Shown one piece after another: positions 14,259-41,511 of a stretch of 64,000 bases of DNA. The stretch lies in contig CM041196.1 in assembly GCA_023078555.1 (NCBI GenBank), positions 10,124,985 through 10,188,984 of the forward strand, given 5' to 3'. Position 1 is the first letter of the stretch; the number at the start of each line of letters is the position of its first letter. Made by a program: the position numbers and the translations under genes. The notes under the pieces are model-generated. The model searched no databases. It was not told the origin of the DNA and saw nothing but the letters and a program-made list of their open reading frames with translations. Source of the DNA: Ulva prolifera (taxonomy: Eukaryota; Chlorophyta; Ulvophyceae; Ulvales; Ulvaceae).

Positions 14259-16932
14259 ATGCAACAGCAGCGAAGAGGGCTAGCTCTCACGCTCTCCCAG
14301 CACGTTCTGGAGTTGCTGATTCTCGCAGCAGTTGCGCATGGAAGACGGGGTGGCGGTGGGGGCATCGGTGGTGATGGGGGTGTCGGTAGTGGTGCGGGAG
14401 GCGGTGGTGGAGCCGGCTTCAGCGGCAGCAGTGTTGGTGGTAGCAGCACGCGGGCCGTCGTCATGCACAGTTGCATCTTCCTTGTTGTCTTTGGTTGCGG
14501 TGTCTGCTGCTTGTGCATCTGGCAGCGTGGCCTGGGGCGGAATCGCGGCCGGCCGCGGGAGGCTCCGCCCGTGGCCTACACGCCAACAGCAGCCGGCGCG
14601 GCTGCTGTCGCAGCAGCCAAGAAACACTGGGCCGCCTTCGTGAGGAGCCAGGGCGCTGCGCCCGCGAGCCCACTGCCCCTCCCTCCACTCTCCGGCATCC
14701 CAGCTCGTACGGAGCCGGTGCGAAGCAGGAGCTGCGGTGCCGACTGGAGTGCCGACCTCCCAGCAAAGTGAGCTACCGCCCTTCCTCGCTAGCTAAGTCT
14801 GCAGCTGTCCAATACTGTACATCATGTGTATGGTACCGCCCGGCCTACCTGTTCTGCAGGCGTCCGGTGAGTTGAGGGTCCTACACCCTGCCTGCATATG
14901 CAGGGTCTATCTCTTCAATATGACGGGGTACTACACCGAGGCGAGGCGGTTCGAGCGCAAACACCCCGGCTGCGAAACCGCCGATGCAGCTTTGACCGGC
15001 AGCGGCGCTCGCTACGACAGCGACGTCAAGATCACCCTGTATCCTGCCACAAGCGCAGCAAGTGGCCTGTGGGTAGTGTGCGGCACTGGCAGGCACAGTT
15101 GCAGCAGAGTCAGCGGCATCTACAACCCCAGCACCGGCCGGTACGCCCCTGTCTGCCTGGCTACAGCATTGTTGGGTTTGCCTGGCAGCATTTTCAGGGC
15201 TGCCACCCAGAAATTGGAGGTTACGAACAGGAATTGTGATTCTATGTGGCTGGGCCTGACCCCCCAACATCGCCTCGCCAGTGCAGCTAGCTTCACGAAT
15301 GACTGGCCAGCATGAGCACGCCATGATGTGCAAACTGTGCTGCTCCATGCATGCCCGTTCCATTTGCCCTCTACCGAACATGCCGTGACGTGCAGACTGT
15401 GCTTTGAGCTGCAGCACTGCTGCCTGTACAACGCCTGCGAAGACCACGTGCATGCCATGCATGCATGCCACTGCATGTGGCATCGCAAAAAGCGTCTGTG
15501 CGCCGGGACGTGGAACAACGTGACACAGCACTACGCCAGGGAGAGCTATAGCTGCATATGTGGTGCAGGGTGGCATGGGAGGAAGTGTGTTCGGACGGTG
15601 TGGAGGCCATCTTCGCGGGGGAGCTCCTACAGGGCGTCGCCCCGGGCACGCAGCAAGCCGCCGCAGCCACCAAGGTCTCTGATGACATGGGCGCGGCGAC
15701 ATCTGTCGCAATTCGCGGGATGGGCGATGGTGACTCGGAGGCACAGAGTATTGTTGAGCTGCCGTGCAAGGCTGCGGGCGCGATGCCAGCGGCGCAGGCA
15801 CGCGAGCCGCTGTGGTTCCTTGTACGGGGAGCGTATGTGGCCAACACTCATGTCATCGGTGAGCTCCCACTTCTGGCCGTGTGCTGTGCTGCGTTGTCAG
15901 ACCTCTGAATTCAAGAGGTCTGCTGCTTCCGGGCCGCCCGTCACTGTACGTATGCATGAGTACCCTGCGCACCTGCGGTATCGTGGACCTCGGCACCGCT
16001 CCAGAGCTGTGCACGGACCTAAGTGGCATTGATGTTTGCTCTCGACATGCATTAATGTAGATTGTATGCATGTGCATCCGAAATTGATGCATTGTGGTCG
16101 CTGTGCGAGCTGTCTGAATCAGGCGCGGTTCGATCGCCCACATTGCGCCTTGCCGAAGAGGCAGTCGCTCCTCTGCCGGAGCTCGTCCTCTCCGTGTTGT
16201 TGGTGCCGGAGCTCGTCCTGCTAGGCCGCACTGTCAACAATCTGCTACAGCGGTGCGGGTCGCTGATGCTTGCTGGTCGCTGCATGGGCCACAAGCCCGG
16301 GGTTCCTCAGGTGCAGGGTTAGATCGCCACGTGGCATATCTGGCGCTGCCCTCCGGAACTTAAAGCTGAAAATTCCTGTAATAGTTCTATTTGATCGGAC
16401 TCGATGACCCAACAATGCTCACGTGCTGCTGGTCCCTCATGCACCCAAATAGTCTTCTGCGAGTCACCCCAATTCGCATCGGAGTGGCGGGCCGGCGTGT
16501 GCATGGCTCAGCTTTACCAGTGTTGGGTCGCCTTGCAGCATTTCCAGGTCGGCAAACCAGAAATCCGACCTGAATATTTGGCATTGTTACATATGATCGG
16601 GCCCGACGACCCAACACCGGCGTTTACGTGCGAGATGCTGTCCTGGTCAAGGGCAGAAACCGCGGCCGCCCAAGGCAAATGTAGGATGGAATGTGGGTTG
16701 ACCTCGAATGCGTGGTTGTGCAGGGGCGTTTGCTGGAGTGTGCCCAGGGGCGGAGGCCATGAGAGGGAAGAAACGCATGGCACTGTTCAAAGCGAGAGTG
16801 GCAAGCACAGCCCACCTTGACGGCCAGGTGGATGGCAGTTATGCCGAGTGCATGGCGAGGGGGCTGCCGTGGAGCTCGTGTGGGGAAGCTGTTGGGACTG
16901 CCGGGGAAGAACGTGTATGTAGCAATGTCTGA
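14259..16932 (+). CDS. array copy A: glycine-rich single-pass membrane protein
   Basis: Exons 14259-14767, 14904-15140, 15569-15858 and 16724-16932; 414 residues, in frame throughout. The signal peptide is MQQQRRGLALTLSQHVLELL onward. The Gly region is shorter and more mixed than in the other copies (Ser, Ala, Asp, Thr inserted). The membrane helix, about residues 70-90, is Cys-rich, and basic residues follow (GRNRGRPR), so the C-terminus is probably cytoplasmic. The ATG aligned with the start of copies C-E is lost here, so translation probably starts six residues later, at the MQQQ. The exon 2 donor is GTACGC rather than GTGAGC. The last exon lacks the usual ending and runs about 15 residues longer (to EERVCSNV). 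Intron 2 contains a degenerate MITE and intron 3 contains two. Confidence 0.7.
15166..15272. mobile_element. hAT-like MITE, degenerate, in intron 2 of copy A
   Basis: Core GCAGCATTTTCAGGGCTGCC and ACCCAGAAATT matches the family; ends decayed (ATTGTTGGGTTT on the left, CCCCCCAACAT on the right). Confidence 0.6.
16344..16417. mobile_element. hAT-like MITE, left-truncated, in intron 3 of copy A
   Basis: Right half only: GCTGAAAATTCCTG, then TTTGATCGGACTCGATGACC, ending CCAACAATG. It lies 100 bp before a fuller copy. Confidence 0.5.
16518..16619. mobile_element. hAT-like MITE in intron 3 of copy A
   Basis: 102 bp. It starts CAGTGTTGGGTCG and ends CGACCCAACACCG, an inverted terminal repeat of about 13 bp with one mismatch. 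It lies about 105 bp before the last exon, the same position as in copies B, C and E. Confidence 0.75.
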
Positions 16933-18438: not shown

Positions 18439-18974
18439 ATGGCACGGGCCATGCAACATCAGGTGAGCGCAGCGGCTCTCACGCTCCTCCATCACCTCCT
18501 CAAGCTGCTGCTACTCGCAGCACCGGTGCATAGTCAGCAGGGAGGTGATGGCCGTGGCGGGGGAGGTGGTGGGGGCGATGAAGCAGCCATCAGCGACGGC
18601 GTGCGGTGTGGGTAGCCAGCCAGCAGAGTGGTGCCACTGCAATCGCCCCGACACTCGGGCTGTGTACTGGGATCGGCTGTCTGTGTTTCTGCTGTAGCCT
18701 GGATGATGCTGAGCTACCTGTTACGAGCCGCGGCCGCCAGTTGCGGCGGAGGCGCTGAATTCCCTGGGACTGTCTGCCCGTGAAAATACACGACAACAGC
18801 AGCTGGCGAAGCTGCCGTAGCGGAGGCGAAGAAGCACTGGTGGAGCCTCATGAGAAGCCGGGGCGCTGTGCCCGCCGGCCCGCTCCGCCTCCCTCCACTC
18901 GGCCGCGTTTCCGCACATCTGGAGCCGGTGGGAAGCAACATCACACGCGTCGCCCAACGCAGTGAGCTCCGATG

Positions 18975-19165
18975 CGTACGTGCCCTACTGCCGCCACTGA
19001 TGAGTCCACAAGGTGAGCGTATACGTACACGCAACGGCATTCAGGTGGCCTGCATGCCTGCCTTTCCAGCCAGATCTGGCTGTCAACAGCCTTCACAGCG
19101 GCGTTCCCTACTGCCGCCACTGATGAGTCCACAAGGTGAGCGTCTACGTACATGCAACGGCATTC
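18975..19165. repeat. spaced direct duplication in intron 1 of copy B
   Basis: CTACTGCCGCCACTGATGAG, then TCCACAAGGTGAGCGT and CGTACAYGCAACGGCATTCA, occurs at about 18984-19045 and again at about 19109-19168. Both units contain the donor-like AAGGTGAGCG, so alternative donors were created. Confidence 0.75.
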
Positions 19166-19188
19166 AGCGGCACGCATGCAGTCACGTT

Positions 19189-19224
19189 TGGAAGTGTCAA
19201 TGTCCTCTCAAGGATACAGCTGAG
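19189..19224 (+). repeat. (TTTAC)n-tailed repeat, fragment
   Basis: GGAAGTGTCAATGTCC followed by AAGGATACAGCTGAG matches the middle of the family; both ends are missing. It abuts the 32-bp minisatellite. Confidence 0.45.
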
Positions 19225-19226
19225 TG

Positions 19227-19470
19227 CATCCAGATATACCGTTCTTGCTGGACATTCACATCCAGATATACCGTTCTTGCTGGACATTCACATCCAGATA
19301 TACCGTTCCTGCTGGACATTCACATCCAGACATACCGTTCTTGCTGGACATTCACATCCAGATATACCGTTCTTGCTGGACATTCACATCCAGATATACC
19401 GTTCTTGCTGGACATTCACATCCAGATATACCGTTCTTGCTGGACATTCACATCCAGATATACCGTTCTT
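19227..19470. repeat. 32-bp minisatellite, about 7.6 units
   Basis: Unit CATCCAGATATACCGTTCTT plus GCTGGACATTCA, starting at 19227 and repeating every 32 bases with rare changes. Because 32 is not a multiple of three, every frame stays open and gives false peptide repeats (SRYTVLAGHSHPDIPFLLDI). It is intronic in copy B. Confidence 0.92.
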
Positions 19471-19977
19471 GCTTGATCATGACCTTCACATCCAGCGGTT
19501 GGTGGACGGTGCGTGACTGCGCGCCGCACCAGCGCCACAACAACGCCATAATCTGTGGCGTAGGCACCAACCATCGCCGCATGCACCGCCGGCGCGAGCG
19601 GCGGTGGTGCCCCGCACGCCACACCGCAGCTGGTCCACACACTCGCGCATGCTGCAGGATACAACTACACCACGTTCGAGGTTGCTTCACCGAGGCCGAG
19701 AGGTTCGCGATGCTGGCCGCCTCCACCACAGTCGACGTGCCGGTGAAGAGCTGCAGTCAGCGGTGGAACAACACTGACATGGAGATCACACTGCATCCTC
19801 CGAGCGAGGCCGCCAGCGGCTTGTGGGCAGTGACAGGCTCTGGCAAGGACAGAGACAGCTGCTGCACAGTCAACGGCATGTACAGCCCCCTCACCGGCCG
19901 GTGAGCCCCCGCCTGCCTGACCTCCTCTTGCGCAGCTGCTCCATCATCGAATCATGATTACAGGCTGTGCGTTGCAA

Positions 19978-20012
19978 GGTCCAGGTCAGAGAGGCAGGTA
20001 GCACCGAAGGAA
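19978..20012 (+). repeat. GGGCAGCACCG-type dispersed repeat, fragment
   Basis: AAGGTCCAGGTCAGAGAGGC followed by AGGTAGCACCGAAGGAA, in intron 2 of copy B. Confidence 0.4.
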
Positions 20013-21058
20013 TCACGCATGTTGCAAGTGTACATGGTTTTGCACACGCATGCCTCGGTGGCGCTCACTGCTGAGCACGGCGTGATGTGTGGTATGTGCT
20101 GTGTGCTGTAGACCTGCTGCCAGTCGGCACGCTCCGTACGCACGCTATCACGTGCCGGCATGTGCTGCGAATTTTGTAGCACTGCCTGTGGCAATGTAGG
20201 GGTCAACAATTGTGGCCGCTATAGCACTGGATCGTTGCCCATCGGTCCAGCGGCGATACCAGTTGCGTCCCGCTCCGCGGCATAAACCGACGTGCATTTG
20301 ACTTCATTACGCCGAGGGACAATGTGGATGGGGAAGTACACCCGATCACGCTCAGGACGGAGGTGACCACACCTGAGGCGGAGCTGCGTGGTGCAGGGTG
20401 GCGTGGGAAGAGATCAGGCCGGCTGTAGGCCGTCTTTTGGTGGCCCAGGTGGGTGGGCGTCCCTGGCCGACACCGGCTGAAGGCCGTCATTGCCGGGGAG
20501 CTCCTACAGGGCGTCTCCATGGACTCGCTGAAGGCCTCGTCCGCCTCCCAGTCGACAAAGATCTCCGATGCGATGAGTGCAGCCTGAGGCGGTCGATGGG
20601 ATGGGCGACCTCGAATCGGAGGCGCAGAGTGTCATCGACATGCCCGGCAAGGCGTCAGCCTCAGCTTCTGCAGGCCAGCCGGCCGAGGCTCTGAGGTTCC
20701 TCGTGCGGGGCGCGTACGTGGCCAACACTCACGTTGTCGGTGAGCCCTTACTGCCACCTGTGCTGTGCTGTGCTACATGTGCTGAGCCGCCTGTGCTGCG
20801 CTGCGCCGTGCTGTGCTGCATGTGCTGTGCTGCCTGTGCTGCGCGATGCTGTGCTGTGCTGCAGCACCTCTGAGCAGGCCTCTGAGGGGTCTGCTGCTAC
20901 CTAGGTCTGGCCGGAATGCCTCACTGCAGCTGCACAGGCGGGGAGCGTCGCCCCGTCTGTGTCTTGTTTGATATTAAACGATGGTCCATCCGGAAATGAC
21001 GCGAGATAGGAGCACCTGTCCGCACGCTGCCAGCGGCGCGCAACTGAGCGGCTCACGG

Positions 21059-21163
21059 CACTGCTGGGCCGCTTTGCAGCATTTCCAGGGCTGCCACCTC
21101 GAAATCAAACCTGAGCACTGGAAATTGTTACACATCCTTGGGCCCGACACTGACCCAACACTG
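21059..21163. mobile_element. hAT-like MITE in intron 3 of copy B
   Basis: Core GCTTTGCAGCATTTCCAGGG; the right end TGACCCAACACTG is intact and the left end is decayed. Same position as in copies A, C and E. Confidence 0.65.
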
Positions 21164-21749
21164 CCGCCGTGCCCGTTGCGGACGCCACACAGGTGCAGCT
21201 CGGCGGCGACTGAGAGGGCTGGTTGTTTGCGCAGGCGCGCTTGCGGGAGTACTAGTGTGTCCGGCAGAGGAGGCTCTCAGCAGGGCAGACTGGGACAGGC
21301 TGCTACAGGACGCGAGGGACGTGAGCGTCGAGGGCAGCTGCGGGGAAGCTATGCCGAGTGCACGGCAAGGGGGCAAAGGGTGGAGCGCGAGCCGGTAGCG
21401 GGAGCGCGTCTCTGCCCCCCCTGGGATGAGCTCTAGACATCGCACCAAACACCTCTTTAAGTACCGGCCCAGCGAGCGCTGGGCCACTCAGAAAACATGT
21501 TGTGGGACTTTTGAGACATGTGTGATGTGATGTCTAGGTTTTATCCAGAATCTGGTGCTCCACCGCGGCAATAACACATAAGCCGGGCCGATGGCGTGTG
21601 GTCCCGTTCATGTTACCGATTCTTCTCTAGGATTCCTCTCCAGGATGTCGTTCAGTTTTACTTTTCTTTGCCTGCGCGACTGCATGTACTTGTGCTTAGC
21701 TTTATTTGAGCGCTGTATTTGGGGCACTGGAGGCTGGCGCACAGTGTTG

Positions 21750-21797
21750 GACTTTGACCATGTGTCAAGTCCAGTCACTTGACACATGGTCAAAGTC
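21750..21797. repeat. perfect hairpin, 21-bp arms
   Basis: GACTTTGACCATGTGTCAAG plus T and its exact inverse around a 6-base spacer (CCAGTC). It is not next to a called gene end. It could be a foldback element or a transcription or replication snap-back product. Confidence 0.9.
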
Positions 21798-23176
21798 AGG
21801 AGGTAGTCAAAGATGTATGTACGTATGAACTGCATGGGCTCTGCACCTCCCCTCCCCTCCCTCCCCTAGGCTGCATTGCCAGAGCCCAGGCAGCTGGGCT
21901 GCGGGTGCAGATGCGCCTCCCCTTGCCTGATGCCGACCAGGTATTGCTGGCTGGCTGGGTGGCCCTGGAAGAGGCTCTGACTTTCTCAGGCCTCAGCCCC
22001 AACTCCTCTGGAAGGATGGGTTTTCTGCCTTGATCCTGGTGGCTGTTTGCAGTGCAGTGAAGTCCCCCGTAAGTTAAACTGCACTCCTCGCACACCACGC
22101 AGTTGCGCCGCAAGTGAGAAGCAATTTATGCCACTGCATGGTACCTGCGAGTCCCTGACGCTGCCTCTATAATTGCATGCACATCATGATGTTAGCAGCC
22201 ACGACTTCGGGTATCTTGCCTAGGTATGGAGCTTGAGTCGCAGGTCAGGATAGTCTGGTAGCCTGTCATGAGAGCCTGTCACGAGAGTCTGTCACAGTCG
22301 GTCTAGACTGCTGGTGTCATCAATGGCTGTCTCTGCACCTGGGATGCAGTGAGATCAGCTCAAAGAGACCATGTGCTCGGACCTCTGCTCAGAGCGCCTG
22401 CTTTCGAGGTTGTGTACATGCATTACAACCAGGGAGGCAAATGGAGCTGCAGATGTTCGCATGGCACCATTGCAACGTCAGCACTTGTGAACACATGTAG
22501 AGTGGGCATCCAAAGCTTTCTGGTGTCTCAAGTCCATGTGGTAACACAAACCATGTACTCTGTCTGCAGGTAGCTAGGTGTGCGCTCAGGCCTGGCTTCA
22601 CAAAAGGTCGAGGTTGCCTGTGGTGAAAGAACAAAGCTTTGCAAAGGGGCATTCGCGGCGTCCGCAGCCAGCTGCTCGCCAGCTGTCACCGCGCTCCTCA
22701 CACCAGCTCCCACGCCACCTCAAGCTGCGCTCCTCACACACCGCGCACCTTCGCCGTAAGTGAAAACAAATGCATGACACCCGGTGACGCAGACGCACAT
22801 GGCACTGAATTGTGCGCAACCTCGTGCTCGGCGTGCTTAAAACCGCCTGACACTGGAGCGAAAGCGCATTGGCGTGAGCGACCCCAACTGCGCGTATTGG
22901 ACAAAAACACATTGTTGATCAACAGTGGACATAAGAAAGGATCGAGTGCAGCCGCAGCCACACATCGAGGCAGGTTGTAACGACTGTTAAGTCAAGAGAC
23001 ATAGAAAAGAGATCTGTCGTCCACCCTTTAAGGTCCAGCTGCTTATATACTATAAGACAGCCTGTGTACGACACCTGCCACAGTGTGCTGAGCTCAGCCC
23101 ACTGTTCACAGGTCCGTCTGCATCTGACACTGCACTCTGATACTGTACTCAAGACACCGACCGCTCTTGGTGTTCG

Positions 23177-23704: not shown

Positions 23705-26585
23705 ATGGCGACCAGTGTCACACAACAGCAGGGGAGAGCGCTAGTTGCCGCATTCTGCCAGCGCCTGCTAATTGTACTGCTACTCGCGGCATTTGCGCAT
23801 GGTAAGGGGGGTGGTGGTGGGGGTGGTGGGGGGGGAGGCGGGGGCGGTGGGGGCGGCGGTGGTGGTGGCTTCGGCGGCAGCGGTGGTAGTGGTGGTAGTG
23901 GGGGGGCCGGCGTCGTCTTGGGTATCTTCGGAGCCATCGCCGTCATCGTTGGCGGCATTTTCATGTTCATCTGCATCTGTAAACGGAAGCAGAGGGGCGG
24001 CCAGGCTGCAGCGAGTACGGCATACAAGCCGACAGCAGCTGGAAGAGCGGCCGTGGCCGAGGCCAAGAAGAACTGGGTGAGCTTCGTGAGAAGCCAGGGC
24101 GCTGTGCCTGCTGAACCGCTGCTCCTCTCTCAGTTGAGCCGCGACCCAGCACGTGTGGAGCCGGTGGGAGTCTCCGGCAAGAGCGGCAGCCCGCGCCAGA
24201 AGTGCGCGCACCCAACTGCCTGTGATGCTGTCCTTGCCTGACGCCCGACTGATTCAGTGCTGCTTTCACTACCATGATTGAATCTCACAGCTAATTTACA
24301 CTATTATTATTATCTGATTTGAAAGCTATCCAGCATCGCAGTAGTATAGGCTTTGGGCATGGGCATATGCTCCGCCGGCGTGTCGTGAGAGTGACCATGC
24401 AAATGCAGGATCCTCCTTGCAAATATCCGAGGGTACTACACCGAGGCGAGGCGGTACGAAGTCAAACAACCCAGCTCCGAAGTCGTCGCGGCAGCTGTGA
24501 ACGGCAACCAGTACGCCCTGCACCAGAGCGACATGAAGCTCACCCTGTATCCTCCGACCGCGGCAGGCGGAGGGAGTGGCTTGTGGACGGTGAGCGGCAC
24601 CGGCAAGGACAGGGACAGCTGCAGCACAGTCAACGGCATCTACAACCCCAGCACCGGCCGGTGAGCCCCCGCCTGATGTCCAGCTCTGCGGCTGCTGGTT
24701 GATTGATTGCAGAAACTCTCTTGCGGCCCTTTTGCCCTTTCACACTAAACCGTGCTACAGCTCACAGCACAGTCTACACACAGTAGCGTGCTCCAGCTCG
24801 CTCTGTTCAGTGTAGAAGGGCTGTGTGTAGACTGTGCTGTGAGCTGTACAGCTACGTAGCACCGGTATGTGGCAGACCGCAAGTAGGTACACATGCATGT
24901 GAATCAATGAATAGGCGTGCACACAGCGCCACGGAACTGCTTGAGCAAGAGCTACGTGGTGCAGGGTGGCATGGGCAGAGGTCAGTTCGGGAGGCCTGGA
25001 GACCATCTTCGCTGGGGAGCTGCTACAGGGCGTCGCCCGGGGCTCGCAGCAAGCCGCAGCAGCCTCTGCGTCTGGCAAGCTGTCGGAGAGCAACAGCACG
25101 GCGCTGTCAGAGGCAGTCGACGGGATGGGAGATGCTGACTCAGACGCACAGAGCGTCATCGACATGCCCGCCAAGGCTTCCGCCGGCCAGCCGGCCGAGC
25201 CGCTGTGGTTCCTCGTGCGGGGCGCGTATGTGGCCAACACGCATGTTGTTGGTGAGTCCTCACCACTCACGCTGCCTGTGCTGCCTGCGCTGCTTTGTGC
25301 TCATTCGCGCTGTGCATATGTGCTGTGCTATGCGTGCTGTGCTATGTGCGATGTGCTGTGCTGCCTGTGCTGTGCTATTCGTGCTTTGGTAACTGTGCTG
25401 TGCTGCCTGTGCTGTGCTATTCGTGCTTTGGTAACTGTGCTGTGCTACCTGTGCTGTGCTATTCGTGCTTTGGTAACTGTGCTGTGCTGCCTGTGCTGTG
25501 CTATTCGTTCTTTGGTAACTGTGCTGTGCTGCCTGTGCTGTGCTATTCGTGCTTTGGTAACTGTGCTGTGCTGCCTGTGCTGTGCTATTCGTGCTTTGGT
25601 AACTGTGCTGTGCTGCCTGTGCTGTGCTATTCGTGCTTTGGTAACTGTGCTGTGCTGCCTGTGCTGTGCTATTCGTGCTTTGGTAACTGTGCTGTGCTGC
25701 CTGTGCTGTGCTATTCGTGCTTTGGTAACTGTGCTGTGCTACCTGTGCCGTGCTGTGCTGGGCTGCCGGACCTCCGAGACACCTCACGCTTGCTTGCTTG
25801 CTTGCTGCCCCACCGCGGGGGACCTCCGGCAGCGCGGAGACTTCAGCGCCGCGCTGGACGTTTGAACGGCCCTGTGGCTGGAGCCCCACGCCATTGATCG
25901 CCCCCCTCGCGATGCACGGGCTTTGTGCAGATGTTTGTCCGCGACCGCCGTTTCACAGCCGCAGGCATTGCCGTGCGCTTGATGAGTGGCATCACGGTGT
26001 CATGTTGCAAGCATGCTGGGCCTGCTCATGCGGTGGCTGGGTGCACTGGGCTCATGCATTGTGCACGAGCCTGAAGTCTTCCATTCTCGCAGCTGTCTCG
26101 TGAGCTCGGCCGGTTCCTTGAGAGAACATGTCCTCACTCTGCCATATGGCGTGGGCTGCAAACTTCAGCACAGCTCCAACTTCGCGGTCCCGATGCATGT
26201 AGGGGTACTGGCACGTACGGAGCGCTGGTGGGCACCAGTGTCGGGTCGCTTTGCAGCATTTCCAGGGATGCCACCCAGAAATTAGACCTGAATATTCAGA
26301 ATTGTTACATATGATCGGGCCCAACGACCCAACACTGGTGGGCGCCCCGGGGCAGATGTGGAGTGTTTCGTGTGTGTTCACATGGAATTGTTCTGTGCAG
26401 GTGCATTTGCTGGAGTGTGCCCAGGAGTGCGGGCCCTCCAGGGCAAGAAGCGTGACGCCCTGTCCAATGCGGCAGCGGCGAGCAAGGCACACGTCAACGG
26501 CCAGCTGCGCGACAGCTACGCTGAGTGCATGGCAAAGGGTCTGCCTTGGAATTCGAGCAAGGGGCATGTTGACTACATGGTTTGA
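23705..26585 (+). CDS. array copy C: glycine-rich single-pass membrane protein (reference copy)
   Basis: Exons 23705-24201, 24409-24660, 24965-25251 and 26401-26585, intron phases 2, 2, 1; 406 residues. I do not recognise the family. Residues 1-33 form a signal peptide (LLIVLLLAAFAHG), about 35-70 is nearly pure Gly with some Ser, about 71-93 is a membrane helix, and KRKQR follows, so a type I membrane protein with a glycine-rich outside part is expected. Conserved blocks after the helix are PTAAGRAAVAEAKKNW and PARVEPV (exon 1), GYYTEARRYE and SGLWTVSGTGKDRDS-TVNGIYNPSTGR (exon 2), VAWAEVSSGGLETIFAGELL and EPLWFLVRGAYVANTHV (exon 3), GVCPGVRAL and SYAECMAKGLPW (exon 4). The W-V-G-G-D-V-G-Y-TG pattern of exon 2 resembles a small beta-sheet module, but this is only a guess. 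A leader intron may end at GCTGTGCAG just before the ATG. Confidence 0.72.
24756..24848. repeat. inverted repeat, 28-bp perfect arms, in intron 2 of copy C
   Basis: The left arm 24756-24783 begins TACAGCTCACAGCACAGTCT; the right arm 24821-24848 is its exact inverse; the spacer is 37 bases. A decayed remnant (GTGTAGACTGTGCTGTG) sits at the matching place in copy E (about 33243). Confidence 0.9.
25362..25750. repeat. 42-bp minisatellite, about 9 units, in intron 3 of copy C
   Basis: TTTGGTAAC recurs exactly every 42 bases from 25385 to 25721, separated by TGTGCTGTGCTGCCTGTGCT and ATTCGTGC-type sequence. 42 is a multiple of three, so long hydrophobic frames (CAVLPVLCYSCFGN repeats) appear on both strands. 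I treat them as intronic artefacts. Copies B and E have unexpanded TGTGCTGTGC-rich sequence here. Confidence 0.93.
26236..26337. mobile_element. hAT-like MITE in intron 3 of copy C (best preserved)
   Basis: 102 bp from CAGTGTCGGGTCG to CGACCCAACACTG, inverted ends with one mismatch. The eight bases on the left (GTGGGCAC) and right (GTGGGCGC) match at seven positions, an 8-bp target duplication as made by hAT transposases. It has no coding capacity. Confidence 0.8.
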
Positions 26586-28047: not shown

Positions 28048-29701
28048 ATGGCGACCAGTGTCATGCAGCAGCAGCCACGAGTTCTTGCTCTCACGCTCTG
28101 CCGACATGTTCTCAACCTACTGCGACTCGCAGCATCTGTGCATGGTAAAGGGGGTGGGGGTGGCGGGGGTGGTGGTGGGGGCGGGGGAGGCGGCGGCGGT
28201 GGTGGGGGTGGGGGTGCAGCTGTCGCTGCGGGGGCTGGCGCAGCTGGAGTTGGCACCATCGGCAGTGATGGTGTGGGTGATGGTGGCGGTGGCGGCGGTG
28301 GTGTTGGCCGCACGGGCGGCATTGCCTTCATCGTGTGTATGTTCGGAGTCGTCCCCGTCATTCTTTGCTGCTGTCTCACGTGCATTGTCTTCCGCCCTTG
28401 GAAGTGGCCGCGCAGACACACAGCAGCTATCGTGCGATACCCGCCAACAGCAGCCGGCAGCGCTGCCGTGGCGGAGGCAAAGGCAAGCTGGGAGGCGTTC
28501 GTGAGAAGCGGGAGCGCCGTGCCCGCAGGCCCGGTGACCCTCACGCCACTCAGCCACGCCCCTGCACGTGCGGAGCCTGTACGCAGCACGACCGCCGGCC
28601 ACCCAACGAAGTGCGCCTGAGATCTACTCCCTGCCTGAGCTGCCGGCCTCACCTGAATGACCGCTCAACGCACAGCTCCCAGCAAAGTCTGTCATGCAGC
28701 ACGTATTCCATCGTCCAGTCCTCACAGGTGGGCCACACCTCAACAGCCTGGGTCCGATATGCCTGGCTTGCGCTCATGCCCATGCATGCTGGGCCTCACG
28801 GCTGGGCCACACCTCAACAGGCTGCCTCGCCTGCGCTCATGCTTCCCACGTGCATGCATGCTACAGAATTCGCATTGCCCACATTCGAGGCTGCTACACC
28901 GAGGCGCAGAGGTTCGACGCGCCCCCGACCGGTGGCGCTGTCGTCGACGCACCGCTGAGCAGGCGCGGCGCAGCATGGCACAACAGCGACATGAAGATCA
29001 CTCTGCATCCTCCCCAGGGCGCAGGCCGTGGCTTGTGGACGGTGAGCGGCGCCGGCAAGGACAGGGACAGCCGCAGCACAGTCACTGGCATCTACAACCC
29101 CCTCACCGGCCGGTGAGCCCCTACCTGCTAGGCTTCCAGCTGTGCATCAGCTTGAGCAATTGTTGACAGCCTCTCTGTGGACAAGCCGCCCTGAGCATGC
29201 GTGATCTGCAGACTGATCTGTGAGCTGTCGCACGATCTCCGGTATAAGGCTCGCCAGAGAGTTAAACGAGCATGTGATTTCCTCAAGAGACACTGCATGG
29301 TCATGGTCGAGGGGCAGCTGGCTAGACCTGAGGCTGAGCTGTGTGGTGCAGGGTCGCGTGGGAAGAGATCAGTTCTGCACAGTTTGCGCGGCCGGAGTGT
29401 TTGGGCGGCCGAGGCCGGCTGAAGGTCATTTTTGCCGGGGACCTCCTACAGGGCGTTGGCCTGGCCACGCACACTGCCGCCGCCGCAGCCTCCACATCCG
29501 CCAATTGCTCTGCCAACGTGAGCACAGCCGCGTCTGAGGCAGTCGATGGGATGGGCAACCTCGAGTCAGACACGCACAGTGTCGTGGAGATGCCGGGCAA
29601 GGCTGCAGCCTCAGGTTCTGTGGGTCGGCCAGTTGCGCCTCTGTGGTTCCTCGTACGGGGAGCGTACGTGGCCAACACTCACGTCATAGGTGAGCCCTGA
29701 A

Positions 29702-29735
<34 letters not shown>

Positions 29736-30485
29736 TTTGGGCGCGAACGCTCTTGTCTAGACAGCTGTGCACATGTTGGCGTGGTGTCGAACCAGTCCAA
29801 TATGCCCTGGTAGTTACAGGTGCACACATATGCGTGCGCAAGGTGCGCACGCGTTGGCAGTCGCGACTGATCGGTCCTGCGCTACGGACGTTCAGCGCAG
29901 GCGCGGTGTTGTGGTTTCTGGTACCATACTATGCCTCAGTGCTGCCCTTGTCTCTATGCATGTTGGGAGTCATCATCTCCGCTGATCACATCATGAGGCA
30001 CAGCTGCTCCACCTCTGCTCGGCCCTGGACGCAGCCTCGCACGAGCCGGCCCCAGACGCAGCCGGCCCCAGACGCAGCCGGCCCCAGACCCAGCCGGCCC
30101 CAGACGCAGCCGCACAGCCTCGCACGAGTTGCAGCACCCTGCGCTGCATCAAGTTAGCCACACTGTACTACGTTTGCCTGTTCGCTGCAACCGCTCGGCC
30201 CAGCTCGAGTGTGTCCTGCGGACGTCCAGGGCCGGTCGAAGCAGCTGTGGCTGCCCTCATATCATATGAACTGGTGATACTTGGCAGCTGATACTGAGAC
30301 AGCCGATAATCTGCGCAGGCGCGTTTGCTGGAGTGTGTCCAGCAGAGGAGGCTCTGAGAGGGGCGGACCGTCACATTGTGCTGGAGCGAGCGAGGAATGT
30401 GAGTGTGGAGCACATCTGGGGTAAGGTGCCGGGAAGCTATACTGAGTGCATGGCAAGGGGCGTGGGGTGGAGCGCACCCCGGTAG
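28048..30485 (+). CDS. array copy D: glycine-rich single-pass membrane protein, divergent subtype
   Basis: Exons 28048-28610, 28867-29112, 29352-29689 and 30319-30485; 437 residues, in frame. The ectodomain is longer than in C: a pure Gly run, an Ala/Gly/Val stretch, then a second Gly run before the membrane helix at about 100-125. Exon 3 has about 17 extra residues (QFARPECLGGRGR region) and the last exon replaces the common RGKKREALSNAREASRAHL block with RGADRHIVLERARNVSVE. Both changes are shared with pseudogene B. The exon 2 acceptor is CTACAG rather than TGCAG. It has no MITE in intron 3, unlike A, B, C and E, but a 33-base C run immediately after the exon 3 donor and a 16-bp minisatellite further on. 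Confidence 0.7.
29703..29735. repeat. C homopolymer in intron 3 of copy D
   Basis: About 33 consecutive C starting 13 bases after the exon 3 splice donor. Confidence 0.9.
30045..30108. repeat. 16-bp minisatellite
   Basis: Four units of GCCGGCCCCAGACGCA (one with a single change) in intron 3 of copy D. Confidence 0.9.
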
Positions 30486-30663
30486 CGCGGCCAGGGCGCC
30501 GCCAGGCCGCTGAGGTTCACCGGATGAGCTTGGCATACTGTGGGCCAATTGGGCACACGTCAAAATGATGTTGGGTCATGTGTGATGCGTTGCCTCCTCC
30601 GAAACCTACTGGCAGGGCTCCAGCGCGGCAATGCACCTCGACCCGCTGCATGCAGAGCAGTGG

Positions 30664-31760
30664 GTCAGCTAGGTTTTCAAACCTAGTCTACAGCCGGCGT
30701 ATGCTACGAGCTGTTGGTGGTGGTGGTGGTGGTACTGGGCCATTGCTTCTGCAGCCTGTGGTCCGGGCTGTGGCATGGGTGTGTTCTCAAATATTGTACA
30801 CGGTTGGTGGTCGTGTGCCTCTGATGCACGTTTTTCCTGTGGATCGACCTGACCATGCCTCCGTCCCTGTATCCTCGCAACAAGACTAATGTTTGCACGG
30901 GGTGAAGTGCAGCTGTGCTTCCTCTGCATGTGGACCCAGTCATACAGCAACGTCTCTGTCAGATCCAAACATAGCTTCAAGAACTTTGAAGCTCAATTTT
31001 GCTCGAGCTCATGTTTGAATCCGGGCATCTAGATCTGGTAAGATCGATTGGTGGACACCTTGGCAGGGCAGCTTCAGTGAGACTGAAAATCGGCGAAGCG
31101 CTTGCCACCACTATCAATCCATCTTCAGCTGGCCACAAGCTGCTCTGCATACAGTGCAAACGCGCAGCGGCATGCCGCAGTGGCCGTGCCATTGCTCGGG
31201 AACGAGCCTGGGCCACTTGCATGAGCACCGTGCGACAGTGATCCTTGCACTGCACCAGCCCTGCTGCCTGCCTGCTGGCACAATTTCAAACACTGCCACT
31301 GGACTGCGCAAGGGTCAAGCTGGCGGAAAGCGTGGTTGACAGTCTTACTCGACGTCGTTTATCCTAGCTGCCGCTCGACTGTCAGTTCCTTCAGAGGCCC
31401 ATAGTCAATCAAACAGCCCTCGATCTTCAGGTCGCTAGGCGTTCGACCACAATTTGTAACAGTCTGGTACATCTTGAGGTGAAAACCGGGGAGTTCACAG
31501 CCCTGCTCGCGGCCCGGCCGCGGCGTCTACCACCTGCTCACCACCGCAAAATGCAGCGCGCTCTTCACACAAACTGCGCAATGTCTCCGCATTTGAATTG
31601 TATGCATGCTGCTTCGGCGATGCTGAAGCAGGTGGCCCTGAATTGTGCGCAACCTAGACCCGAGCTCGTGCTCGGCGTACATGATAGCGCCTGAGACAGA
31701 TGAGAAAGCTAATCGGCGTGAGCAAATGCATCTGCTCGATTTGCGAAAGCGATGCAGGTC
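30664..31760. repeat. segmental duplication, unit 1 (5' flank of copy E)
   Basis: Colinear with 35371-36448 over about 1.1 kb. Landmarks in both: GTCAGCTAGGTTKTCAAACC, CTGTGGATCGACCT, TCTCTGTCAGATCCAAACA, GGACACCTTGGCAGGGCAGC, GGCCGTGCCATTGCTCGGGA, TGCAGCGCGCTCTTCACACA and GAGCTCGTGCTCGGCGTACA. The 4.7-kb offset is about one array period. Confidence 0.85.
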
Positions 31761-32109: not shown

Positions 32110-34660
32110 ATGGCGACCAGGGCCCTGCAACAGCAGCGAAGGGTTCCAGCTGTCACGCCCTGCCAGTATGTCCTGGGGGTCCTGCTTCTCGCAGCATTTG
32201 TGTGTGGTAAAGGGGGTGGAGGTGCAAGTGGGGGAGGGGGGGGTGGGGGTGGTGGTGGTGGTGGTGGTGGTGGTGGTAGTGGTGGTTTCGTTGGGGGCGG
32301 ACACGGCGCTGGCGGCAGCGAGCGCAACAGCGTTGATAATGGCGGCGCGGGCGGCATCGTCGTCGGTATCATCGGAGCCGTCATGCTTGGCTGCTTTTGC
32401 ATGTGCGTCTGCGTCCGTCATTGGCAGCGGACGCAAGTGAAAGGTCAGACTGCAGCAAGCACAGCATACGAGCCGACAGAAGTTGGCAGAGCGGCTGTGG
32501 CAGCGGCAAAGTCCAACTGGGTGCACTTCGTGCGGAGCCGGAGCGCTGTGCCCGCGGGCTCGCTGCTCCTCCCTCCACTCAGCCGCGACCCAGCATGTGT
32601 GGAGCCAGTGGGAGTCTCAAGCACGGGCGGTGGCCGCCCAAAGAAGTGAGCAGGCACACCTCCCTGACTGCGCAGCTGAGCACGTGTGACGCCAAATATA
32701 CCAAAATGATTCTATTGCTGTTTGTGCTGATGTCACAGCTATCAGGGAAGGCCTTGATTCAGGCCTGCTTTGGTCGCCAACATGTTCCTCAGGCATGACG
32801 TGAGTGCGGCCATGTCAGTGCAGGATCAACCTGTTCAACATCCAAGGGTACTACACCGAGGTGAGGCGGCTCGTGAGCCATCCGCCTGACTCGGCAGTTG
32901 TCCAAGTACCTCTGAACCAGCACGAGCTGCACGAGAGCGACATGAGGCTCACGCTGTTTTCCGCGACAGCGGGCGCCGCAGGGAGCGGCTTGTGGACGGT
33001 GAGCGGCACCGGCCGGGACAGGGACAGCTGCAGCACAGTCAACGGTATCTACGACGCCAGCACAGGCCGGTGAGCCCCCGCCTGACAATGAGTTGCGCAG
33101 CTGATCGATGGCAGTTCTCTCTGTTAAAAATTGCAGCCCTTCTGAGCACGCTAGCAGGTGTAAAGTACAGTAAATATAAATTCACTGAGCCGTATCTTAT
33201 TGGACATTGACAACTCCGAGTTAACGGGACCACATATGCCGGTGTAGACTGTGCTGTGCATGGTGCCACTGCCGCCCGAAGAAGGCCAGCGAAGTAGGTA
33301 CACGTGCATGTGAATCAATGAAAAGCCGTGCACACAGCGGCACGGTAGTGCTTGAGCAAGAGCTATGTGGTGCAGGGTGGCATGGGCAGAGGTCAGTTCG
33401 GGTGGCCTGGAGGTTATCTTCGCGGGGGAGCTCCTGCAGGGCGTTGCCGCGGGCTCGCAGCAAGCCCCTGCAGCCTCTGCGTCTGGCAAGTTGTCGGAGA
33501 GCATGAGCACGGCGATGTCCGAGGCAGTCGACGGGATGGGTGACACTGACTCTGATGCACCGAGTGTCATCAACATGCCCGCCAAGGCTTTCGCGGGCCC
33601 GGCAGTTGAGCCTCTGTGGTTCCTCGTGCGGGGAGCGTACGTGGCCAACACTCACGTTGTCGGTGAGTCCTTACTGCCACCTGTGCTGTGCTGCCTATGC
33701 TGTGGTGAGTGTGCTGTGCTGCTGAGAATGTGCTGTGCTATGCTGTGCTGTGAAGCATGTGCTGTGCTGTGCCGTACTGTGGCGCATGTGCTGTTCCGTG
33801 CTATGCATCGCAGCCAAACCGCTGACAGACCTGTTGCTTGATGACTTTCCCACCGGTCTACACCTGTCGCAACGGAGAGTTTCGGGGAGCCTGGGAGTCG
33901 TGTGAATAACATGGCGCCGATATGTACTGTCGAGATGCATGCTCCTTGTGCGTATGTGTGTGAGTGACTAGCAAATCACAGACACAGTGTGCGCGATGGC
34001 AAGCACAAGTGTTACACGATTGCTGAATGGCCTAGGCCTCGTACTGTGATGTTGAGAGCATGCTAGCCGTGCTCCGGCTGGGGCTGGGGCTGCACTGGAC
34101 TTCTGCATTGTGTGTACTTGTCTGCAGACCTCCAGGTGTCGCTGCTGTCTCGTGAGCTCGGCCAGCCTCCCGACAACACCGACCTCGCGATGCAATGGCG
34201 TGGCCTGCGACGGCCCGCCTGCCGTTTTGCGCGCATGCACCAGTGTTGGGTCGCTTTGCAGCATTTCCAGCGATGCCACCCAGAAATTAGAGCTGAATAT
34301 TCGGAACTGTTCTGTTTGATTGCGCCAGATGCTCACTTCTACATTGACAGCACATTCCCAGTGCCTCCTGGGCCCCTCGCACCGCTGGACGCAGCCTGCA
34401 GACACCTAAGCCTGAATCACTCACCAGCTGATGTAGGGTGGCTGGGCCGTTCACTTTGCATGGTTGGTTGTGCAGGGGCGTTTGCGGGAGTGTGCCCGGG
34501 GACGGAGGCCATGAAGCGCGTGAAACCGGGCGCGCTGTCCGCCGCGAGAGAGGCGAGCAGGGCGCACCTGGAGGGCCAGCTGGACGGCAGTTACGCTGAG
34601 TGCGTGGCCAAGGGGCTGCCCTGGAGCTCAGGCCAGGGCAATGTTGACTACGTGGTCTGA
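32110..34660 (+). CDS. array copy E: glycine-rich single-pass membrane protein
   Basis: Exons 32110-32645, 32824-33069, 33376-33662 and 34476-34660; 417 residues, in frame. The start MATRALQQQRR is followed by a signal peptide with an unusual Cys before the cleavage region (AAFVCGK). The Gly tract is encoded by a pure GGT run (about 32246-32276), the kind most prone to slippage. The membrane helix is VVGIIGAVMLGCFCMCVCV, followed by HWQRTQVK. A further exon is possible at 34128-about 34201 (acceptor TCTGCAG, DLQVSLLSRELGQPPDNTDL, donor GC|GTGGCC). It is phase 1-1 and so could be included or skipped without changing frame, but copy C breaks the matching sequence, so I left it out. Intron 2 holds a (TTTAC)n-tailed repeat and intron 3 a truncated MITE. 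Confidence 0.72.
33160..33240 (-). repeat. (TTTAC)n-tailed dispersed repeat in intron 2 of copy E
   Basis: Near full length in reverse: TAAAGTACAGTAAAT, then ACTGAGCCGTATCTTATTGG, ACATTGACAACTCCGAGTTA and ACGGGACCACATATGCC. Confidence 0.8.
34241..34328. mobile_element. hAT-like MITE, right-truncated, in intron 3 of copy E
   Basis: Intact left end CAGTGTTGGGTCGCTTTGCA and core; the right end after TTTGATTGCGCCAGATG is lost. Confidence 0.7.
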
Positions 34661-35370
34661 GCCGCGGGATACGGCATCGTTTGGCGCAGAGAGGCACTGG
34701 CATGAAGATCACGGGCGTGGCCAATGATCATCAAACCTTGGGAGTGAAGCAGGCAGCGTGACATCATGTATCTCAGTGCAGAATAGTGCAGACGTGTGTA
34801 GAGGACAGGCCTCATGGCAGTACATGATTCACCCTTGCAGGTTTGAGTCATCCCAAACCTCCGGCCAGGTGATGCATGGCATGTGTTCGCCCAGAGGGAC
34901 ACAGAGCGAAAGAGTACTCTTTTCGTCGGACGCCCACGGTCAGAAGTTCGGGGAGTGCAGCAATCAGTGTGACGTCATGGGTGTTGGTGCAATACAGTGC
35001 CGTGTGTAGAGAACAGGCGTTGGTGCAGAACGTGACGCAGTCCATCAGTACATATATTGAGAAGAGTCATGCAAGTTTGAGTGATTCTCAACCTTCAGCC
35101 AGCCAGGCCAGCCAGGCGGAACCGCATGTTGGTATAGACATTGTTGCTGCAATTGTACAGCAGTCCAGCCGATTCGACTACGCAGCGAGTGGTCCTGGTG
35201 AGTTTTGGCGTGGCTGCCTTGGATGGTGCGATTCGTGGGTTCTCTGAGATAGTGTTGCTGATCGCTGGCTCAAGAAGTTTGTTGTTGTTCAGATGGTTTA
35301 GCAGTGACAGTAGCGTCACGTGTGATAGAGGATGCCTTCACAGTTGTGCATGGGCATCATGTAAATTTGA
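34661..35370. other. 3' flank of copy E with a local duplication
   Basis: No gene called. The sequence after the stop (GGCATCGTTTGGCGCAGAGA, GCAGCGTGACATCATGTATC, GTGTAGAGGACAGGC) recurs in diverged form at about 34875-35030 (GGCATGTGTTCGCCCAGAGG, AGTGTGACGTCATGGGTGTT, GTGTAGAGAACAGGC), so the 3' untranslated region has been duplicated in tandem. Copy C's 3' flank matches the first unit. Confidence 0.5.
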
Positions 35371-36448
35371 GTCAGCTAGGTTGTCAAACCAGGTCTACAG
35401 CTGGCAGAAGCTACGAGTGCCTGCTGTCCATGGCGGTTGTGCTGGGCTGTTGCGTATGCTGGTTGTGGTCTTGGCTGTGGCATGGGTGGGTTGAATGCTG
35501 TACACATGTTTGTGCAAATGTGCCTTTGCTGCACGCTGTTCCTGTGGATCGACCTCAGCTTTTACGGTATTGCCTCCTGCCCTGTGACCTTGTACAAGAC
35601 TGCTTACGCCACAAGACTGCTGTCTGCGATGCCGGTCCATCTACTCTGCATCTGAACCCAGTCATCCAGGAAAGTCTCTGTCAGATCCAAACACAGCTTC
35701 ACAAGCTCTTTCAACTCGGATTGGCTCAAGTTCAAGTTTGAATCCGGACCTCCTGCACGATCGATGGACACCTTGGCAGGGCAGCTTCCGTGACACTGAA
35801 AACTGGCGAGGCGCTTGCCACCACTTCCGGATCATGTTTCAGTTGTTCACAGGCTGCTCTATCCAGTGCAGGCAGCGGCACGCAGCAGTGGCCGTGCCAT
35901 TGCTCGGGAACGAGCCTAGGCCATTTGCATGAGCAGCGTGCGACGGTTGTGGATCAGCCCTGCTGCCTGACCGCTGACACAATTGCATGCCCTGCCCCTG
36001 TTATCTGCGGGGGAAAGACTGACGGAAAGTATGGCTGACACTCCCTGTTCGATGTCGATAATCCTAGCTGCAGCGAACCACTGGCAGAGGTCCGTAGTCA
36101 ATCACAGCGCCCTCGGTGTTCAGGTCGCTAGGCGTGAGACCACACTTGATAACAATTTGATGTACCGTGAGGTGAACCGAGGGGAGTTCACAGCCCTGGT
36201 CGCGTCCTGGCCGCGGCGTTTACCAGCTGCTCAGCACCGCAAACTGCAGCGCGCTCTTCACACAAACTCCGCAATGTCTGCGCATTTGAGATTTATGCAT
36301 GCTGCCTCGGCGGTGCTGAAGCAGGTGGCCCTGATCTGTGCGCAACCTAGACACGAGCTCGTGCTCGGCGTACATAAAAGCCCCCGACACAGATTAGAAA
36401 GCTTATCGGCGTGAGCGAAGGCATCTGCTCGATTTGTGAAATCGATGC
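35371..36448. repeat. segmental duplication, unit 2 (5' flank of the array relic)
   Basis: Partner of 30664-31760. It leads straight into the deletion relic, just as unit 1 leads into copy E. Confidence 0.85.
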
Positions 36449-36624
36449 CCCTCCCTCCACTCACCGGCATCCCAGCAAACGTGGAGCCTCTGCGGCGGTC
36501 GAGCCGGAGCGGCGGCTTGCCGAAGAAGCTCCTCGACGGCCAGCTGGACGGCAGTTACGCGGAAAGCATGGCCAAGGGTGTGCCCTGGAGCGCGAGCATG
36601 GAGTCGGTCGACTGCGTGGTCTGA
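36445..36624 (+). pseudogene. array relic: exon 1 tail fused in frame to last-exon tail
   Basis: An open frame of 59 codons from ATG at 36445 to TGA. The first about 26 residues match the end of exon 1 (MPLPPLTGIPANVEPL, then SGGLPKK). They pass directly into the end of the last exon (LLDGQLDGSYAESMAKGVPW, then VDCVV). Signal peptide, Gly tract, membrane helix and exons 2 and 3 are absent. The junction falls a base or so after the normal exon 1 donor but deep inside the last exon, so it is not a splice product (not a retrocopy) and is best explained by internal deletion. The frame is open, so a short cytoplasmic peptide could still be made, though its promoter region is also shortened. Confidence 0.7.
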
Positions 36625-39051: not shown

Positions 39052-41511
39052 ATGAGGGCAGCACAGGCCATGCAACATCAAGAAAGAGCGCTGGCTGTCA
39101 CGCTCTGTCAGCATGTCCTGCACATGCTGCTACTCGCCGCATGTGTGCGCGGTAAAGGGGGTGGCGGTGGGGGCGGTGGAGGGGGAGGTGGAGGTGGAGG
39201 CGGCGGTGGTGGTGGTGGTGGGGGCGGAGGTGGTGGTGGCTTCGGCGGCAGCCGCGGTGGTGGCGGTGGGGGCGCTGGCGGGTGGCCCATGGCGCTCGGT
39301 ATCATCGGCGGCATGTTCTTCCTCACCGGGTGCGCTTTCGCGTGTTTCTACATCCGTCTGCGTACGAAGAGGAAGCGCGGCCTGACCAACCGGCCCCAGC
39401 CCGCAAGCGCCAGCGCGCCGTACACTCCGACGGCAGCTGGCAGAGCTGCCGTGGCAGAGGCAAAGTCCAACTGGGAGAGCTTCGTGAGGAGCCGGAGCGC
39501 TGTGCGGGCTGGCCTGCTGGCCCTCCCTCCACTGACCCACGTCTCAGCACATGTGGAGCCAGTGCGAAGCTCAAGCAACGGCGACGGCCTCCCAAGGAAG
39601 TGCGCTGCCTCGCCTGCCTACAAATGCTGGGTCGTTGGGCCCGATCACATAGAACAATTCCACCAACAACAACAAAAATGGACCAAGCCCTGCACGGCAG
39701 CTCAGAAAATGCTGCAGGGCGACACGGGTTGGCACGGTTCCGTGTTCGTGCATCCGGCCTGCTTGCCCCAGAACCTCACCTGAAGCCGAACGTCGGCATG
39801 TTGACAGCTGCGCGGCGCCTGCATGCGGACAGCCTGCGTGTTCCGCACGCGCGGCAATTGAAGTGAGTGCGCGCACCCCCGATGCAGGATCCGGCTGTCG
39901 ACAGTCCGAGGGTACTACACCGAGGCGCGGCGGTACGTGCGCACATATGACTACTTCAAACACCCGGGGGCTGTTGCCGTCGATAAGGGGGACACCGGCA
40001 TGCGCAGCAGCAGCGCCCAGCACGAGAGCGACATGAAGCTCACCCTGCATCCTCCCACAGGCGGAGGGAGTGGCTTGTGGACGGTGAGCGGCTCTGGCAA
40101 GGACAGGGACAGCTCGAGTAGAGTCAACGGCATCTACAACCCCAGCACCGGCTGGTGAGCACCTGCCTCATTACGGGCTGCAGGCGCGGGATGGCAGCTC
40201 CTGACTCTGTCTTTCCGAGCATGTCGTGACGTGCAGGCTGTGCTGTGAGCTGCACTTGCAGACGGCCTATCAAGTACAGGAACATTGGACCGATTTTACT
40301 GAGCCATGTCCGCAGGAGGACACTGAAAACTCCAAATGAATGGGACCCATCGCCGTTGAGTACAATTCCGTAGGTGCACGTGTATTTCACTCTGCGGCGT
40401 CACAGTTTTGTTTGGTTTTTTCTGTTGCCCTGCATGTGGAGACACGAGACTGCTCGAACAAGAGCTGCGCACGTGGTGCAGGGTGGCGTGGGAGGAGGTC
40501 AGCTCGGGCGGCCTGGAGGCCATCTTCGCTGGGGAGCTGCTCCAGGGCGTCGCCCCGAGCACGCAGCAAGCCGCCGCAGCCCATGCGTCCGCAAAGCTCT
40601 CTGACGTTGCGAGCAGAACCGCGTCTGAGGCAGTCGACGGGATGGGCGACGCTGACTCAGAAGCACAGAGTGTCATCAACATGCCCTGCAAGCCTGCAGG
40701 CTCAACTGAGCCTCTGTGGTTCCTCATACGGGGAGCGTATGTGGCCAACACGCATGTCATTGGTAAGCTCTCACTGCTGCCTGTGATATGCTGCATTGCC
40801 AGAGCTGTGAAAGATCTGCTAGCAGCGCTGCGGGCTGGCTTCCCCGCCAGTGCACACCTTTGGGACTGCTCCAGAATGCACCTCTCCAGAGCTGGCGCCT
40901 CTGCAGCTGTGAGTGGTCGATCGTGGCGCCAACAGTTCGTCTCAACTTGAGTAATTACATCCACCTCTTTGCGAGTGAACGCATCAGTGACTGACAGCTC
41001 GCGGTGAGCTGTATCCAGCACGGAAAACAACAAACAGTTTGATTGCTTCGCCCGAGGACTGGGATCAGAAGACCTGGGCACAGCTGAATGCTACATGAGA
41101 TTTCTTCCTCAATCCCTCATTTTCTCAAGGTTTCAGCGGCGCCTCGTCCACCCGCACATCTCCCGAGGGGTAGAGTGATCAACTCTGCATTGGAGCTCTG
41201 CATTGAAGTGGTCCGCCAGGCGTTGCGCAGCTGCTGGTTTGCGTCGCATGCCAATCTTGGGTGACGCGCCACAACGTCGCAGTGTGAATGAAGTGGTATG
41301 CTTGTTGGTGCGATGACCTCGAATGCATGGTGCAGGGGCGTTTGCTGGAGTGTGCCCGGGGACAGAGGCCTTGAGAGGGAAGAAACGAGAGACACTGTCC
41401 AACGCGAGAGAGGCAAGCAGGGCGCTCCTCGACGGCATGGTGAAACACAGTTATGCAGAGTGCATGGCAAAGGGGCTGCCCTGGAACCGGAGAAGGGAGG
41501 CTGCGGCGTGA
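39052..41511 (+). CDS. array copy F: glycine-rich single-pass membrane protein
   Basis: Exons 39052-39599, 39888-40154, 40482-40762 and 41336-41511; 423 residues, in frame. The start MRAAQAMQHQERALAVTLCQ resembles pseudogene B (MQHQ) rather than C-E (MATSV/MATR). It has the longest Gly run of the set (more than 25 consecutive) before GFGGSRGGGGGGAGG. The membrane helix is GIIGGMFFLTGCAFACFYI, followed by a strongly basic RLRTKRKRG. Exon 2 is 7 residues longer than in E and ends in Trp (GWGG from GGCTG|G) instead of the Arg at that splice junction in the others. The exon 3 donor is GTAAGC. The last exon ends RRREAAA without the VDYVV tail of C, E and the relic. No MITE is recognisable in intron 3. 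Confidence 0.72.
40288..40350 (-). repeat. (TTTAC)n-tailed repeat, degenerate, in intron 2 of copy F
   Basis: GATTTTACTGAGCCATGTCC, then GGACACTGAAAACTCCAAAT and GAATGGGACCC; same position and orientation as in copy E, so it was inserted before those copies separated. Confidence 0.55.

Follow-up and report, generated by a model that had tools for sequence, protein, structure and literature searches.

Six head-to-tail units, with their exons rebuilt from the DNA, were found at 14259-41511 of the window (the whole 64,000-nucleotide stretch of Ulva prolifera DNA analyzed here), and the array they form is almost certainly a real coding gene family. Its layout is given below, in which the exons of copies A, C, D, E and F are those of the rebuilt models.

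14259..14767, + strand: copy A exon 1 (predicted signal peptide, Gly-rich segment, membrane helix and juxtamembrane segment)
14904..15140, + strand: copy A exon 2
15569..15858, + strand: copy A exon 3 (the database frame P0020 matches this exon and the adjoining intron)
16724..16932, + strand: copy A exon 4
18439..21436, + strand: copy B, broken (exons 18439-18961, 19658-19900, 20397-20739 and 21235-21436)
23705..24201, + strand: copy C exon 1
24409..24660, + strand: copy C exon 2
24965..25251, + strand: copy C exon 3
26401..26585, + strand: copy C exon 4
28048..28610, + strand: copy D exon 1
28867..29112, + strand: copy D exon 2
29352..29689, + strand: copy D exon 3
30319..30485, + strand: copy D exon 4
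32110..32645, + strand: copy E exon 1
32824..33069, + strand: copy E exon 2
33376..33662, + strand: copy E exon 3
34476..34660, + strand: copy E exon 4
36446..36624, + strand: relic, an exon 1 tail fused to an exon 4 tail, with exons 2 and 3 missing
39052..39599, + strand: copy F exon 1
39888..40154, + strand: copy F exon 2
40482..40762, + strand: copy F exon 3
41336..41511, + strand: copy F exon 4
43002..43186, + strand: lone exon 4, open in frame and preceded by a splice acceptor

The rebuilt models of A, C, D, E and F agreed exactly with the summed exon lengths claimed in an earlier sequence-only reading of this DNA (1245, 1221, 1314, 1254 and 1272 bases, respectively), and also reproduced the intron phases of 2, 2 and 1 and the single terminal stop that it had proposed. 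All 15 introns of these five models showed GT...AG borders, and we infer the splicing of the four-exon models from the open frames with matching borders. The same reading had assigned one structure to all six copies; the array and the four-exon layout stood. Copy B, with phases 1, 1 and 2, is broken by several in-frame stops and frame shifts, with its homologous exons at matching places. The DNA just upstream of the ATG in B, C, D and E shares a splice-acceptor-like motif, GTGCAGGCA, and in these four copies a 5' non-coding exon, with GTGCAG as its end immediately ahead of the ATG, is possible; sequence farther upstream shows hardly any conservation.

Between-copy similarity was largely confined to the exons. 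As measured by blastn coverage of base-by-copy cells, exonic values were 0.34-0.99 in the five intact copies and 0.16-0.84 in copy B. Introns gave 0-0.29, the upstream DNA between -1000 and -101 gave 0-0.19, the 100 bases directly preceding the ATG gave 0.10-0.44, and the downstream stretches gave 0-0.36, the maximum of the last being that of D, which contains a duplicated block. In codon-unaware exon alignments, all 54 internal gaps were multiples of three, as were all 27 when the polyglycine-bearing exon 1 was left out, whereas in a control block judged to be non-coding (30661-31755 and 35368-36448) this held for only 4 of 23 gaps; gaps were tallied per sequence in these counts, and one event may thus be scored more than once. 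When single-base shuffles of each spliced coding sequence were made, 0 of 2000 remained open.

Over the whole protein, dN/dS (Nei-Gojobori) was 0.38-0.51 in all ten pairs of intact copies, and the claim of selection for a full-length product, to which the gap lengths in multiples of three also speak, was thereby borne out. The comparison along the five intact copies that had been proposed as a check gave values below 1 in every exon of all ten pairs, namely 0.33-0.65 in exon 1, 0.55-0.82 in exon 2, 0.17-0.45 in exon 3 and 0.26-0.58 in exon 4, at a dS between intact copies of 0.51-0.84. Because the introns are mostly unalignable, the dS is of this size and five frames have stayed open with such dN/dS ratios, the duplication is judged to be old and selection to have acted since. 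Among 24 windows of 20 codons, the strongest constraint was located at LVRGAYVANTHVVGAFAGVC (pN/pS 0.07), which spans the junction of exons 3 and 4, and since the most constrained window crosses their junction, these two exons are argued to be joined. The window of the membrane helix, with a pN/pS of 1.15, was the sole one above 1, and selection there may keep hydrophobicity alone; the segment just before the helix was weakly conserved (pN/pS 0.77). Exon 2 displayed the weakest constraint of the four exons and no codon-position signal (mismatch 0.300/0.273/0.286). The GC3 of the family was 0.67-0.72. Two pieces of the neighboring ChlH gene gave higher values, 0.95 for an exon piece with a Pfam match and 0.81 for one that was identified as ChlH by eye; the modest GC3 of the array genes may reflect low expression.

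The intact copies encode 406-437 residues (406-423 in A, C, E and F). Hydropathy analysis recovered the predicted order, in which a signal peptide is followed by polyglycine, a single membrane helix and the conserved blocks, except that the N-terminal, signal-peptide-like hydrophobic peak was detected in only four of the five intact copies. In copy D this peak fell below the cut-off used; its signal peptide is weak, with an arginine located in the hydrophobic core, and the helix is present. The second hydropathy peak, corresponding to the predicted helix, had a mean of 1.99-2.79 in A, C, E and F and of 2.91 in D. The two hydrophobic peaks of A, C, E and F are separated by 40-50 residues that are 53-81% Gly and contain no cysteine, with a longest Gly run of 5 in A, 21 in C, 16 in E and 28 in F. 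The 25 residues following the helix of these four copies hold 3-7 K/R and 0-2 D/E, as against 0-1 K/R before it; counted by eye, copy D has 5 K/R after and 1 before. For A, C, E and F, the hydropathy and charge profiles thus predict a signal, one helix and a basic cytoplasmic side, as in a type I single-pass protein.

By the positive-inside rule, this K/R asymmetry puts the polyglycine outside and the conserved blocks on the cytoplasmic side, and the conserved domain of exons 2-4 is probably cytoplasmic. The likely topology is thereby corrected: the conserved, selected part would probably reside inside the cell. Two cysteines are invariant; both are in the exon 4 part and, as a disulfide, would fit an outside domain. 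N-glycosylation sequons were found at unshared places (one in A, two in C and three in D; none in E and F). Copy C ends in DYMV, copy E in DYVV and the lone exon in AYVV, all of which resemble short scaffold-binding tails; A, D and F carry no such ending.

To our best explanation, each intact gene would give a type I single-pass protein with an N-terminal signal, a short polyglycine segment facing the lumen or the cell wall, one membrane helix followed by a basic stop-transfer segment, and, contributed by exons 2-4, a conserved cytoplasmic domain some 240-250 residues long. The combination of a gene family with this topology and an inside domain, which overlaps with the endomembrane alternative weighed below, appears to us evenly poised between right and wrong. 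The glycine-rich stub might thread into or tether to the wall matrix, the membrane-held cytoplasmic domain might bind a partner, and the several copies could raise the dosage and offer binding surfaces that differ slightly. The step from polyglycine to wall is drawn by analogy with plant glycine-rich proteins, and the role of a wall-tethered anchor is a tentative proposal that we hold to be somewhat less probable than its negation; the topology, the plasma-membrane location and the partner binding in this scheme are all what we infer. An extended version, in which the family is an undescribed Ulva wall-to-cytoplasm linker with polyglycine in an ulvan/cellulose matrix, a helix, a new cytoplasmic domain and a [DA]Y[VM]V end docking a scaffold, with birth-and-death copy swapping and possibly with F able to end alternatively in the lone exon 4, is speculative and improbable.

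The closest competitor of the wall-tethered anchor is a resident of the ER, the Golgi or another internal membrane, whose domain would serve as a cytosolic adaptor and whose glycine would be a lumenal spacer making no wall contact. The signal peptide and helix give entry to the ER only, and no feature specifying the plasma membrane was seen in the sequence examined; we consider this alternative possible, if rather unlikely. A variable protein of the cell surface that serves in adhesion or recognition, and whose outside part would differ between copies and individuals and mediate contact, had been put forward from the sequence as a role for rapidly varying proteins of this kind. The tandem birth-and-death array, the single-pass protein, the longest Gly run that varies over 5/21/16/28 in A/C/E/F and the weakly conserved segment before the helix all speak for it, yet it needs a larger, diversifying outer part, and none is predicted: the outside segment of A, C, E and F amounts to 40-50 cysteine-free, mostly Gly residues, the conserved blocks come after the basic stop-transfer segment, and no exon reached a dN/dS above 1 in any of the ten pairs. 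This role was therefore not upheld, and we regard it as unlikely.

Just as unlikely is the opposite topology, with the domain of exons 2-4 outside the cell and the polyglycine in the cytoplasm. The inside placement of the domain is derived from the charge rule only, and both the sequons of A, C and D and the two invariant cysteines would suit an outside domain; however, the basic residues are concentrated after the helix (including those of D counted by eye), the N-terminal hydrophobic peak of four out of five copies fits a signal peptide, and the sequons are unshared and missing from E and F. Finally, the array could be decaying and unexpressed, its frames being open merely through recent duplication. 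Broken copy B, two relics and the modest GC3 are compatible with such decay, but the exons align while the introns mostly no longer do, and the dS of 0.51-0.84 together with five open frames and whole-protein ratios of 0.38-0.51 renders it very improbable.

Additional to the six units, two relics were identified, at 36446-36624 and 43002-43186. The lone exon 4 at the latter could be what is left of another unit, could have arisen by duplication of a single exon, or could serve F as an alternative last exon; if both relics are remnants of whole copies, eight units would have existed. The array would have undergone birth-and-death evolution, leaving five intact genes, one pseudogene and two relics. 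The closest pair of copies changed from exon to exon (C/E in exons 1 and 3, C/F in exon 2 and A/F in exon 4), a pattern that gene conversion might explain. A block of 1.1 kb following D (30661-31755) recurred after E (35368-36448) with 76-77% identity, with a trace at 22782-22879, and its three genome matches were all within the array. The possibility that this block is a second gene was rejected, given that 4 of 23 indels were multiples of three and no clear codon periodicity was seen; it is probably duplicated intergenic DNA.

The relatives of the family were sought in its own genome (88.9 Mb, 44 contigs) with single-sequence queries, of which the best candidates were scored, so that distant relatives could be missed; by these searches, the family was not found outside the array. 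The idea that the family is a dispersed repeat or a transposon was rejected, since these single-sequence searches returned this locus alone. Weak matches on contigs C4, C5 and C6 (E 0.17-4.7) were judged to be due to chance, and the translations of those on C4 and C6 bore no family resemblance by eye. The family had been described as unrecognized, and this was corroborated: the domain of exons 2-4 gave no significant match in Pfam, NCBIfam or PDB. Specifically, the domains of A and F matched no Pfam family at E ≤ 10, the best NCBIfam match (E 0.042, in one of five members) and the best PDB match (E 0.11) being judged to be chance. Searches with five full-length proteins yielded Pfam matches to KdgT (two members, best E 0.0053) and CYYR1 (one member, E 0.62) only, which were likewise judged to be chance. 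Full-length profile matches to 19 proteins, 17 of which carry the Tim44-like domain (best E 1.3e-7), were dropped as low complexity together with 227 PDB matches, which, among the 60 listed, fell mainly on the stretch of glycines.

When 5.8 billion proteins were searched with a profile, with a limit of 8000 candidates, four relatives were returned at E 1.6e-26 to 2.9e-43. All four are exon-sized genomic frames, none of them a spliced protein, and two of them, P0020 and P0023, still hold intron sequence. P0020 begins as an exon 3 like that of copy A and reads on into the intron. Compared with copy A, it has 2 differences over 96 residues of exon 3, none over the 10 that follow and 8 over the 67 residues of frame-shifted intron read-through. 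P0021 has an open exon 3. Ranked by identity, its closest copy was broken copy B (61%, residues 51-161), and ranked by E-value it was copy C; B therefore probably has an unbroken relative elsewhere. A Pfam match of P0021 at E 0.03 was judged to be chance. With the few peptide patterns used, no relatives were detected in the bacterial, archaeal and viral genome collections. As for the literature, the terms sought do not occur in the mating-type paper PMC5601483, the term 'glycine-rich' is absent from the accessible portions of the ECM reviews PMC8307928 and PMC10762512, and nothing relevant appeared among the listed papers on membrane families rich in glycine, or on tandem families, of Chlorella or Ulva.

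Several known systems were compared with the array proteins. The hydrophobic-x-Gly-x-Tyr/Leu pattern (h-x-G-x-[YL]), repeated in the domain as VNGIY, FAGEL and VRGAY when read by eye, suggests a beta-rich fold, the likeness to a calycin-like beta-barrel consisting of this by-eye sequence pattern only. A search with a beta-barrel consensus found the array itself and chance matches, with 0 of 24 candidates at E ≤ 0.01. Class I of the plant GRPs comprises glycine-rich proteins with a signal peptide, and the array proteins are like them in having a signal peptide and then a glycine-dominated segment (A, C, E and F; the signal peak of D is below the cut-off). They differ in that glycine forms a short segment before the helix, 40-50 of the 406-423 residues of A, C, E and F and thus not the bulk of the mature protein, the rest being mostly a non-repetitive conserved domain. 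The volvocine pherophorins and other hydroxyproline-rich wall proteins are multi-copy wall proteins of green algae, so that a green-algal origin, multiple copies and a possibly wall-facing position are shared with the array, whose proteins have glycine instead of a proline rod, plus a membrane helix. Neither a pherophorin domain (Pfam, with exons 2-4 of A and F and five full-length proteins) nor a Pro rod (in the sequences) was found. Wall-associated and receptor kinases have a signal peptide, a single helix and an intracellular conserved part, as do the array proteins according to the predicted topology, whereas no kinase family appeared in the Pfam or NCBIfam results for the latter.

The array is a tandem orphan gene family, with no significant sequence match in the libraries searched, in a genus where orphans are plentiful: in U. 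compressa, only 7,523 of 19,207 genes are given as similar to known genes (PMC9266709). It is an orphan like these genes and differs from them as a multi-copy array with measurable selection. A clean gene family is thereby added to a genus in which most predicted genes of U. compressa resemble nothing known, and should the wall-tether reading be true, the family would be a candidate linker to the cell wall, or sensor of it, in a green lineage that is multicellular. At present, the array stands as a solid annotation and not as a surprise.

Repeats of three kinds were observed inside the introns. An element of 100-105 bases, with inverted ends TGTTGGGTCG / CGACCCAACA as read by eye in copy A, occupies part of intron 3 in four copies, A, B, C and E.

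16516-16620, 21057-21161, 26234-26338 and 34239-34343: 100-105 base intron 3 element

At least 41 matches to it were obtained across the genome, 40 of 806 first-look candidates having been scored, and it appears to be a MITE-like dispersed element. Intron 3 of copy C contains a 42-base tandem repeat of about 10 copies (25319-25754), which is open in frame with exon 3 to give a 299-aa frame at 24966-25865, and intron 1 of broken copy B contains a 32-base tandem repeat of 7.7 copies with 98% matches (19227-19473). The whole window gave no match to Rfam.

Elsewhere in the genome, a plastocyanin gene was located by using a plastocyanin sequence as query, and 47 translated exon residues were identical to PDB 7pcy_A at 47 of 47 positions, the next best chain being 1iuz_A. 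The source of 7pcy is Enteromorpha (now Ulva) prolifera, and that of 1iuz is Ulva pertusa. The mean GC content of the window was about 58.5%, close to the genome values given in PMC9266709, 57.3% for U. compressa and 57.2% for U. mutabilis. Plastocyanin and GC content together make Ulva the very probable host. The following features were identified in the flanks of the array.

7541-7990: ELIP-like frame, assigned by eye
48162-50453, - strand: LRR protein
55230-62036, + strand: magnesium chelatase H / CobN (PF02514), in three frames

A TPR frame resembling EMC2, which scored just under the Pfam cut-off, was also observed in the flank.
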